A stretch of DNA of 64,000 nucleotides from Panagrolaimus kolymaensis (lineage: Eukaryota; Nematoda; Chromadorea; Rhabditida; Panagrolaimidae): NCBI GenBank assembly GCA_028622995.1, contig JAJQJQ010000022.1, positions 124,001 through 188,000 on the forward strand, given 5' to 3'. This document shows, one piece after another, positions 1,610 to 53,245 of the stretch. Made by a program: the position numbers and the translations under genes. Positions within the stretch are counted from its first letter, which is position 1. Each line of letters begins with the position of its first letter. Under the pieces are notes generated by a model. It had not been told where the DNA came from and did no database searches. It saw only the letters and a program-made list of their open reading frames with translations.

Positions 1610-3449
1610 TTAAAAAATAATTTTAACGGTTGGTCTTTCAATTTGCGGCTTCCAAGTATCCAGTTTTTCTTTGAGTTGAGCTTTGAATTGTGGAACATCC
1701 ATTTCATCATTTGCCAACGGTGTGAAAATAAGATGAACTAGAGCTCTAGGAGCAAGTGTTTTCTGAAAAGAATAAAAAATCATATAATGAGAATAACAAA
1801 AATTGTGAAATCTTACTGTAAGGACGTCAAAAAGTGAAGAAGCAATAATTGGATCTTTGTAAAATTGAAGTGAAAGATGCTTGATATTGTTTCGGTGAGG
1901 AAGTACGAGTAGTTGAATTCGATTTCGAAATTGAATTCCACGAACTTTTGCACTAAAAGTAAAACTTGTTAGAAAAACAAAGATAAATATAACCAACCGA
2001 ACAGATCCAGCATTTGGAAGATGGAGCAACAATTCGACGAAAGAAATAACTTTGCTATCTTCGCTATTAACAAAACTGTTTATTGAATTCCATTCTTTTA
2101 CCATACCAGATTTTGTAATTAATTTCAAAATACGCATGGAAATACGAAGAGAACTTATAAAAATTTTCTTTGCCTCAATTCGATTATCCATTGATAAAGC
2201 AATAGGTTGAGAAACATGAAGTGAGTTTGTAATCCAATATGGTTTACCAAGCTCAGATTTGTTTACAAACACCATTTTCTTATTATCAGTCATTATTGTG
2301 ATTTTCTTATCAGTTCCAATGTGAAGATCATCAACCATAAAGTATAGGTTCTTTGGAAAGAAAAATTTGCAGGTTTTTTCAAACTTTTTCCAAGTTTCAG
2401 CATCGGCAGTTTCACGAATATAGCACATATGAGGATACGGGAAGGCAAAGTATTGTCGTTCAGCGTCATCATCATTGAATGTAATCTTCTTCTGTACAGT
2501 TTCAAGCACTGGCGGCATTTCATTTTCAGCAGGAGGAGCATCCATTTCAAACATAGGCATCTTTTCATCAGATTCGAGAACTTTTTGGTTGTAACGTTCT
2601 TTAAATGCAATATTTTCAAAGTTGAAATCGACATGAATTTTAGCTTCAGGATCAAGATGTTTCTGAAATATTATACTAACAATAAAGATTATCAATAAGG
2701 GAAAAGGCTTACTTTGACAAATGTGAAGAGCCAATTAGCATTCAAAGAACGATCGACATTGGTAAGGCTCAACTCAGTAATCTTGTTTTTCCATGGAATA
2801 GCGAGTAGTTTCTTCATTGTTTGACGAGTGACATGGCATTTACCGATCCTAAAAAACAGAAAATAAGCAAAGTTATGAGCAAAAGACATGCAAAAAAGAT
2901 TTTTTACCTTATAACTCGAGCAGTTGGAACCAAAGATAAAACATCTTCCAAAGGTACAGGAGACATATCAAGATCATAAAAGATTGAAAAGCTATGTGAT
3001 ATGTCCAAATATTCCACATTTCCAGATGATGTTAGACATTTAAAGCCTTTTAAGTTCATTGCACAATTAAACAAAGAAATTTCAGAAGCATCACATCGAA
3101 CAATTTTAGAAATAAATGCGCCATCAGGATTATATTGAGGGAATAGATACACTTTCTTAGTAATCCAAATGAAATTGGCTTTCTTCATAAACATTTCGAG
3201 CTCAACATCATCCATAAAATCCAAGCATCCATCATACTTTTCGTTTTCAATTCGTCGTTTCCATTGATCCATTTCCATGCCATCCACGATGAGAAAAGGA
3301 GCTTTTGCGAAGAAATATTTGCAAGTTCGATCCAGCATTTGTTTGATTTCGGAATCAGCTTTCATGTTGACATATTCGATGAGTTTCACAGGAAATGGAA
3401 ATTTTTGTTGAACAAAATTTGTCAAATTGAATGACAGCTTTTCACCCAT
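1610..3449 (-). CDS. F-box-like protein with two F-box-like/repeat units
   Basis: Five exons on the minus strand: 3449-2908, 2848-2713, 2662-1998, 1952-1817 and 1762-1610. The joined frame is 543 aa. Residues ~15-55 (FPFPVKLIEYVN...RTCKYFFAKAPFLIVD) match the degenerate F-box pattern of divergent nematode families, where a hydrophobic first helix is followed by TCKYFF and a 'VD' strand. A second copy lies in exon 3 (FAFPYPHMCYIRE...KTCKFFFPKNLYFMVDD). Leucine-rich, LRR-like segments follow each unit. F-box proteins normally bridge SKP1-cullin ubiquitin ligases to substrates; that role is inferred from the family. Two introns (45 and 54 nt) are in-frame and stop-free, so retention would not truncate the protein. 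Two adjacent genes read as one are possible, but the exon 2/3 junction keeps phase. The closest relative in the window is the disrupted gene at 50.3-53.0 kb. Confidence 0.7.
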
Positions 3450-50339: not shown

Positions 50340-52988
50340 TTATGGATTATTATTTTCTTCAATAAAAGGAAAGGGTGATGGAAAAGTGGAAGGTTGTCTT
50401 TCTTTTGGTTCCCAAGCATTTATTCGTTCAAATATATTTGTTATAAATGCAGCATTTATGTTTGGATCTTCAAAAGAGATGAAAACGGCAGCTCTATTGA
50501 CAAGGTTTTTCTAAAAAAAACTTTAGCTTAAAAATTTACCAAAACATTACTTCAAGAAATTGACAAAGAAGATCAACGTTGATTTCTCCATCGATAAGCT
50601 GCCAAACTAATCGATTTAATTTCGGTTTGTGTTTAATTTTTAAAAGGTTTTTCATTGTATCTTCAGTAAATGCATATTCTTGTAAGCTAAAAGTGAATAC
50701 ATTATAATTAAAAAAAACCCTATGTTTTTTTATTCAAAGTAACATTACCAAAACTCAGTGACTTTAGGAACAAGAAGAAATAATTCTTCTGGAGGAACTG
50801 GAGTAAATTTACCGAAATAATAAACTTTGTAATATAAAATTAAAACACATTTTTTGAGAAAGTGAAGCTTTTTTGACTTGATTTGGCACAGGTTAGAAAG
50901 ATTTCTTTTTCTGTTTACGAAACTTCACCCCAAGGGTCAATTTGGCCTAAAAATCACGAATATTGACTCCATTTGGTCGGATGATATGTTTAATTTAGAG
51001 ATACGGTCACTTTCGTGTTAGGACCCGAATTAATTTTTTAAGACCAATATATAAAAAAAATTCTTCTATTATCGTTTTTTCCACATAAAAATGAGTCTTT
51101 TTCGTATTGACAACAAAAATTGCTATCCATATAAATCCCTCTATTCGGTTACATTAAGGTTAAAAATATGTAAAAATTTACATAAAAACACATTTATCTC
51201 AAAAACTATGGCTCTACTGGAAAGATTTTATTACATATTCGGATTCTCCATGGTTTTTTACCCCTAACGGTGAAGGCACCTAAAAAAATTACAGTACCTT
51301 CGATATTCATTTGATTCACTAAAAGTGTAAAAGGTGGTTATATCGAATATCGAAGGTTATAGGGAAACTTATTGAATTCGATTAGTTTTTGTGGAAATGG
51401 AGTCAGAAACAATTAAAATAATTAAAATTAAAATTTTGGGTAACATTACAATCATTTTTCTTCCCTGTGGATCCATGTGGATATGGCAACATCAACCATT
51501 AATGGTAAATCGGGTGTATTTGGTGTAACAAAAAAATAAAAATCTCAAAAGTACACATTTTTAAATAAGAATCATTTTTCTTATACTAATTTTGGGTCGT
51601 AGAAACCGAATTTGATAGCAGCGAACATCACTGTTTTTATAGTTTTTGAGTTATGAATTTTTGAAATATGCAAATTTTCACTACCACAAAAAAAATTTAT
51701 AATCTATTCAGATGCTGAAACAAATGTCAAATTCGGTTTCTACGACCCAAAATTAGTATAAGAAAAATGATTCTTATTTAAAAATGTGTACTTTTGAGAT
51801 TTTTATTTTTTTGTTACACCAAATACACCCGATTTACCATTAATGGTTGATGTTGCCATATCCACATGGATCCACAGGGAAGAAAAATGATTGTAATGTT
51901 ACCCAAAATTTTAATTTTAATTATTTTAATTGTTTCTGACTCCATTTCCACAAAAACTAATCGAATTCAATAAGTTTCCCTATAACCTTCGATATTCGAT
52001 ATAACCACCTTTTACACTTTTAGTGAATCAAATGAATATCGAAGGTACTGTAATTTTTTTAGGTGCCTTCACCGTTAGGGGTAAAAAACCATGGAGAATC
52101 CGAATATGTAATAAAATCTTTCCAGTAGAGCCATAGTTTTTGAGATAAATGTGTTTTTATGTAAATTTTTACATATTTTTAACCTTAATGTAACCGAATA
52201 GAGGGATTTATATGGATAGCAATTTTTGTTGTCAATACGAAAAAGACTCATTTTTATGTGGAAAAAACGATAATAGAAGAATTTTTTTTATATATTGGTC
52301 TTAAAAAATTAATTCGGGTCCTAACACGAAAGTGACCGTATCTCTAAATTAAACATATCATCCGACCAAATGGAGTCAATATTCGTGATTTTTAGGCCAA
52401 ATTGACCCTTGGGGTGAAGTTTCGTAAACAGAAAAAGAAATCTTTCTAACCTGTGCCAGACCAAGCTCCACTTTCTCAGAAAATCTGTTTTAACATAGTA
52501 ACATTTCCTGCCTTCGTTAAAAATTTCAATTCTTCCATTGTTAACTTTTCACAACTCACTTGCAATGAATAAATGTCGCAATGTACAATTTTTGAAATAA
52601 CTTTAGATGGCTGAGGACAATACAGTAAATCAAGGGCTTCAAGAACGATTATATTATCTTTGAGCATATTTAAATCTTTTTCATTGAAAGATATTTTGAG
52701 ATTGTATTGTTCACATTTATTTTTAGGATTTTCCCCTTCTTCGCTATCTTCAAAATTTTCTTCATTTTCGTCAACGTTATATACCACAAATTTATCCAAA
52801 ATGGCATATTCTTTTTTTAAATAAAAATATTTACAAGTTTTATGCAACTTTTTAAGAATTTTATAATTAACAGAATCCATTACATCATTCATTATTGGTT
52901 TTTTAAATGCAAAGGGTTGCAAAATAGCATCGTCAAATGTGGGCATATTTAATGGAGAGAAAAAATAACGATTGTTCAGCTTTCTCAA
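50340..52988 (-). pseudogene. F-box-like gene split by a palindromic insertion
   Basis: The 5' part (52988-52494) encodes LQPFAFKKPIMNDV...KTCKYFYLKKEYAILD, the same F-box-like pattern as the gene at 1.6-3.4 kb, and continues to TKAGNVTML. There the frame enters inserted DNA and stops within a few codons (KQIF-stop). The 3' part resumes beyond the insertion: 50839-50749 (YYKVYYFGKFTPVPPEELFLLVPKVTEF), then exons 50686-50551 and 50510-50340, ending IEENNNP. Both halves align collinearly with the intact relative (SSGNVEYLD... PVPLEDVLSLVPTARV). If the insertion and one TTAA copy are removed, GNVTML runs in frame into LYYKVYYFGK. As present, the gene is interrupted unless the insert is removed from the RNA. 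The start may instead be the internal Met at about 52946. Confidence 0.75.
50840..52493. mobile_element. Palindromic (foldback) element, TTAA-flanked, inserted in an F-box-like gene
   Basis: Arms 50884-51615 and 51727-52458 are inverted copies of exactly equal length (732 bp); by eye I found no mismatch. They surround a 111-nt unrelated spacer (51616-51726). Outside the perfect arms, diverged ends (50840-50883 and 52459-52493) still match as inverted repeats: TTAAAACA(C/G)ATTTT(T/C)TGAGAAAGTG. The element begins and ends with TTAA, and removing one TTAA plus the insert restores the host exon. TTAA targeting is typical of piggyBac-type and some other DNA transposons. No open frame of useful size lies inside, so it is non-autonomous. 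The ends do not show the usual piggyBac CCC start, so superfamily assignment is tentative. Confidence 0.85.
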
Positions 52989-52995
52989 TCGCTGC

Positions 52996-53245
52996 TCGAA
53001 ATCGGGACTTTCTGGTTTATGTTTTAGCCATTAAAGGACTTCATTTTTTATTTGTTGTATTTATTTTACCTCGAATTTGTTTAATCTTTATCAAAGAGAC
53101 AAATATTTTAATTTTTAAAAAAATCTTCTAATCGAAATCGGGACTTTCTGGTTTTTGTTTTAGCCATTAAAGGACTTCATTTTTTATTTGTTGTAATTTA
53201 TTTCTTACGAATTTGTTTAATCTTTATGAAAGAGACAAATATTTT
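52996..53245. repeat. Tandem direct duplication, two ~114-bp copies
   Basis: Copy 1 (52996-53109) and copy 2 (53132-53245) share TCGAAATCGGGACTTTCTGG, the TTTTAGCCATTAAAGGACTTC run and the TTTATxAAAGAGACAAATATT end, with a few substitutions and a small indel. It lies just upstream of the split F-box-like gene. Confidence 0.8.

Follow-up and report, generated by a model that had tools for sequence, protein, structure and literature searches.

Tc4 of Caenorhabditis elegans is a non-autonomous foldback element roughly 1.6 kb long, whose arms measure some 0.77 kb and whose target is a 3-bp TNA. In root-knot nematodes, the foldback-like family Tm1 comprises transposase-coding members and others resembling miniature inverted-repeat transposable elements, and is characterised by 9-bp duplications, a Mutator/Phantom transposase and terminal inverted repeats (TIRs) made of tandem repeats (PMC3169594). 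Galileo of Drosophila, a member of the P superfamily (PMC4079207), has TIRs that are more than 99% identical within GalileoN-1 and -2 and about 7% different between them, while the middle segments of GalileoN-4 and -5 run in opposite direction, both being chimeras tied to a chromosomal inversion (PMC2775673). Sola elements encode a DDD transposase, produce 4-bp target duplications, mostly measure 2-9 kb and have TIRs of 11-1124 bp (PMC10741241). Kolobok elements are described by TTAA duplications, 5'-RR/YY-3' termini, a zinc finger and a C/DxxH motif between the second D and the last acidic residue (PMC9587614). Here we analyse a palindromic insertion in a 64,000-nt stretch of DNA (contig JAJQJQ010000022.1), hereafter called the window. 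It is very probably a non-autonomous foldback of a Sola-like cut-and-paste family, inserted at TTAA in an exon, whose arms recombine inside tips of unequal length.

The features of the locus are listed in Table 1. Aligning the two 732-bp arms gave no mismatch, which bears out the earlier note's description of inverted arms without indels around a 111-nt spacer; a repeat listing gave the pair a length of 739 nt, a separation of 111 nt and an identity that rounds to 100%. With 1464 of 1654 bp in the arms, the inverted repeats make up nearly the whole element, as in the foldback class. TTAA stands on both sides, and the insert plus one TTAA measures 1650 bp, or 550 codons, a multiple of three. 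The two pieces of the host exon share one minus-strand reading frame, and the open reading frame (ORF) of the upstream piece runs on into the element and then stops. In the three closest paralogs, at C11 (1.38 Mb), C4 (7.96 Mb) and C22 (1.51 Mb), with 70-79% DNA identity, the matches to the left and right flanks directly adjoin and the exon is continuous through the site, which reads ATAA or CTAA and not TTAA. The insert boundaries are thus real insertion boundaries. The proposals that removing the insert restores one frame and that a transposon had entered at TTAA therefore hold, and coding relatives with the same ends exist.

These relatives were found in a genome assembly of 265,843,910 bases in 807 contigs, where all copy counts are lower bounds. 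A query made of the left arm plus some of the spacer recovered at least 58 matching stretches (best 40 of 409 candidates). A 25-base end pattern with at most one mismatch occurs at 100 places genome-wide, and the reversed pattern, used as a control, at none. Convergent pairs less than 12 kb apart account for 72 of the ends (36 pairs), leaving 28 unpaired; 20 pairs are of 1.6-1.7 kb, 6 of 2.55 kb and 10 others of 0.5-9.6 kb. Two coding copies are 8.3 kb long with TIRs of about 970 bp, so that both objects of the search advised by the earlier note, further copies and a coding partner with the same ends, exist. Equal 4-bp target duplications flank 24 of the 26 fetched copies with both ends: TTAA in 19, TTAT in 3, ATAA in 1 and ATAT in 1 (WTAW). 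The five duplications other than TTAA show that the four bases belong to the target and not to the element, whose termini read AACA...TGTT. Near-identical copies form the groups L009/L010; L011, L012 and L014-L019; and L034-L036. A separate observation concerns L021 (C2:9300150-9300715), a copy of 566 bp: its outer 12 bases beyond TTAA are mutual reverse complements, as if it lay in mid-palindrome. The end pair 9.6 kb apart at C36:1959063-1968647 is possibly another coding copy or else two unrelated ends.

The tips of each copy were measured from AACA to a shared GGCACAGG-type anchor and the arms were compared over the 660 nt inside it, after setting aside L013 and L023-L027 (single end) and L021 (566 bp). 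Each of these 25 copies combines a 41-nt end with a 32-nt end. The outer ends, previously described as diverged and finishing in TTAA, do finish so, but what was taken for divergence is this left/right length difference common to all the copies compared. Over the part inside the tips, 12 of the 25 copies have two identical arms and 20 have arms sharing at least 99.4% identity, with subfamilies 13-24% apart. Pooled over 22 copies, which are not independent (L020, L022 and L028 were excluded for having more than 20 arm mismatches each), left and right disagree at 81 of 704 tip positions but at 38 of 14,509 arm positions. For the window copy the corresponding counts are 5/32 and 0/660 (Fisher p = 1.5e-7), and its nearest full-length relative is 87% identical, partial matches reaching 90% (best 40 of 409 candidates). 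In a tree of arms, left and right arms pair within L028, L029, L032, L033 and L037 (support 0.985-1.000), and copies of the near-identical groups intermix, as expected. In a tree of tips, with weak support, the long tips of L022, L029-L031, L033 and L037 cluster across subfamilies. Since the 9-nt length difference is present in 25/25 copies, it would be older than the subfamilies, and the arms appear to have been made identical after it arose.

The middles of the elements were compared after orienting each copy by its long end. Among 13 foldbacks, 12 of which belong to the 20 pairs of 1.6-1.7 kb (L028 does not), the loop lies one way in 6 and the other way in 7. For instance, L034 and L036 have arms 99.9% identical, and their loops are 100% identical only after flipping one. 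Likewise, the internal 0.5-kb sequence of the six 2.55-kb elements runs in the L009 direction in 3 and is reversed in 3, the middles of L010, L011 and L012 lying in the same direction as that of L009. No clear source of the loop was found in the 8.3-kb copy. Identity of arms within copies despite the 13-24% divergence of subfamilies, together with the inverted middles, supports arm-arm recombination in the family, as judged from sequence comparison. Crossing over between arms would explain the inverted middles directly; swapping of tips would yield the same result. Regarding the earlier alternative of a young element or one kept identical by gene conversion, the family-wide evidence favours recombination of arms, while youth of the window copy is likely but not proved, 5 of the 25 copies falling below 99.4%.

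The transposase of the coding copies has a predicted integrase-type fold. The integrase cores came from a VIA second look and not from plain Foldseek, which gave no match in the PDB at E <= 0.001; its best rows above E 0.001 were Mos1, SPARTA/Argonaute and RNase HI (RNase H-type domains), plus unrelated entries. One sequence search of the PDB gave a single match at E 0.51; in another, reaching to E 1, nearly all matches were zinc fingers. Residues D203, D284 and D325 are conserved, E/D316 being an alternative candidate for the third catalytic residue; a C2H2 finger is present further downstream, beyond the predicted catalytic core. No Pfam transposase matched at E <= 1 with 7 L009 exon pieces or with P0001, P0003 and P0006, and piggyBac is accordingly not supported. 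An alignment of five spliced transposase proteins retrieved at least 25 protein matches among the best 7,994 candidates, with relatives from nematodes, bivalves and a coral; the L009 protein as sole query returned 2 unnamed proteins, and the last transposase exon on its own gave no match, probably owing to the length filter. In L009-L012 the transposase gene has the long end on its 5' side, as deduced for L010 from near identity to L009. A search for SL1 gave 33 weak matches, none above the cut-off, a result that at most leans towards a nematode source. Both 8.3-kb copies have, upstream of the transposase, a 121-amino-acid ORF (L009:7206-7568, minus strand) with one membrane-spanning-like hydrophobic stretch. 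A 41% relative with one internal stop, at C24:3129592-3129960, lies 3.4 kb upstream of another transposase exon, at C24:3133338. The element may thus contain this ORF as a second gene.

The duplications and the predicted fold point to cut-and-paste transposition by a DDD/E transposase generating 4-bp duplications. In the mechanism we propose, the element would have inserted at TTAA into an exon belonging to a gene copy that one of the three homoeologous chromosomes carries. Transposase of coding relatives, such as the 8.3-kb copies, would recognise the 32- and 41-nt tips and move the element in trans, as the shared ends suggest. Inside the tips, gene conversion between arms would keep them identical and crossing over between them would invert the middle, either in place or during transposition repair. 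We extend this only tentatively to a mobile element with two isomers, in which the arms would recombine freely with the middle lying either way, the unequal tips would be kept because the transposase needs both, and foldbacks would persist as self-repairing palindromes, comparable to other flip-flop inverted-repeat DNA.

Several observations weigh against this account. The target duplications are unequal in 2 of the 26 copies (L015 and L018). Arm identity is not always kept: it drops to 98.9% in L084, 97.4% in L038, 94.7% in L028, 86.8% in L020 and 85.8% in L022, the arms of the last two carrying indels, with L028 and L038 hinting that divergence of arms is possible once a copy has inserted. 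The weakly supported tip tree places both tips together in L028, L032 and the L011-L019 group, so that what is common to all copies is the 9-nt length difference only and not every tip base. The copies were all taken from a single assembly, where a loop lying between perfect arms might in principle have been placed in the wrong orientation; the HiFi reads published for Panagrolaimus kolymaensis (PMC10374039), with a mean of 14.4 kb, exceed the length of a foldback, which bears on this point. Finally, the family would fit Sola best as judged by its features, and both the TTAA in 19 of the 24 equal duplications and the 5'-AA...TT-3' termini, which agree with 5'-RR/YY-3', would suit Kolobok.

The same transposon biology in a divergent Kolobok lineage, to which the C2H2 finger downstream of the core would also correspond, is nevertheless unlikely, because TTAT, ATAA and ATAT serve as target duplications as well. 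Moreover, the Kolobok C/DxxH motif was found between D284 and D325 in 0 of 34 proteins (37 sequences, 3 without one motif), a count valid only if D325/E316 is the third residue. We give a similarly low chance to arms being identical through the youth of each copy, with no continuing recombination. The near-identical groups do show recent bursts, but youth gives no account of near-identical arms in subfamilies 13-24% apart that share the 32/41-nt end difference, nor of the inverted middles. In addition, the window copy and L037 have arms 100% identical and, in genome searches, no full-length relative above 87% (partial matches to 90%), and L032 behaves likewise among the fetched copies. A perfect palindrome is also the classic form of an assembly artefact (inverted read chimera), which is extremely improbable here and was rejected in view of the many copies: the 36 end pairs lie at separate places and show a constant end difference, with equal target duplications and uninterrupted paralog exons. 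An effect compatible with recombining arms, a double-stranded RNA hairpin silencing the family itself, as the earlier note proposed, or the host gene, seems rather doubtful: a transcript through the site would hold a 732-bp perfect hairpin and the insertion sits in an exon, but neither homoeologous chromosome has the gene copy.

Tc4 resembles the window copy as a nematode non-autonomous foldback of similar element and arm size, but it differs in its transposase and was rejected on its 3-bp TNA target, the family here using 4-bp WTAW. Tm1, likewise a foldback-like nematode family with coding members, was rejected on its 9-bp duplications against 4 bp here, its Mutator/Phantom transposase and tandem-repeat TIRs being further differences (PMC3169594). 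Sola shares the 4-bp duplication, found in 24/26 copies here, and the 8.3-kb elements and their TIRs of about 970 bp fall inside the Sola ranges; foldback derivatives and inverted middles, present here, go unmentioned for Sola in the available passages of PMC10741241. Kolobok shares TTAA duplications, RR/YY termini (AACA...TGTT here) and a transposase zinc finger (PMC9587614), but the TTAT, ATAA and ATAT in five of 24 equal duplications depart from TTAA-specificity. Galileo shows the same TIR identity within copies, divergence between copies and reversed middle segment, although its reversed middles belong to inversion-linked chimeras and the available passages of PMC2775673 mention no fixed difference in end length.

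Identity within copies with divergence between them is therefore not new in principle (Galileo, PMC2775673). Open-access literature searched by titles and the start of abstracts yielded no middle-segment isomers of transposons, Galileo being nearest, and its listings and available passages held no description of constant unequal tips together with frequent isomers. The family offers a clean natural experiment on how identity is maintained in the long palindromes of a genome, each copy holding an internal control in its unequal-length tips beside homogenised arms. If triploid parthenogenetic P. kolymaensis is the source, arm-arm recombination would be continuing in an asexual lineage. The family also points to a probable group of DDD/E transposases that had no Pfam match here and has relatives in nematodes, bivalves and a coral.

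The published P. kolymaensis genome is triploid, with 266 Mb in 856 contigs, 49 of them mitochondrial, and a contig N50 of 3.8 Mb (PMC10374039). Left and right of the site, C4 and C45 are homoeologous to the window over long stretches of 87-97% identity, and both lack a window segment of about 3.35-3.5 kb containing the gene copy and the element. These gaps were derived from match coordinates, and of the two replacement intervals only that of C45 was read. The interrupted gene is thus a copy on one of three homoeologues; it is a presence/absence gene and looks dispensable, being absent from the other two.

Table 1. Positions of the element, the interrupted host exon and the segments absent from the homoeologues (window coordinates)
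Feature	Position	Strand	Basis
Left target site duplication, TTAA	50840..50843		sequence reading
Long (41-nt) terminal end type	50844..50884	+	a 41-nt end opposite a 32-nt end in 25/25 copies
Left foldback arm, 732 bp	50884..51615	+	0 mismatches to right arm
Loop (spacer), 111 nt, orientation class F relative to ends	51616..51726	+	loop comparison
Right foldback arm, 732 bp	51727..52458	-	0 mismatches to left arm
Short (32-nt) terminal end type	52458..52489	-	end measurement across copies
Right target site duplication, TTAA	52490..52493		sequence reading
Upstream part of interrupted host exon (...KAGNVTM)	52494..53030	-	ORF 52476-53030, paralog match
Downstream part of interrupted host exon (LYYKVYYFGKF...)	50748..50843	-	ORF, paralog match
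Host gene copy and element, absent from C4	50095..53447		184 bp stand there instead
Host gene copy and element, absent from C45	50071..53591		236 bp stand there instead

The homologous gene that the earlier note placed at 1.6-3.4 kb is present at the start of the window (2318-3419, minus strand) but is a distant relative, with 32-39% protein identity to the host gene. The label "F-box-like" did not stand, no Pfam family coming near its cut-off in the host-exon pieces or in one paralog exon. Close to the host gene's 5' end, at 52996-53245, two tandem-like direct copies of 114 nt are 92% identical and 136 nt apart.
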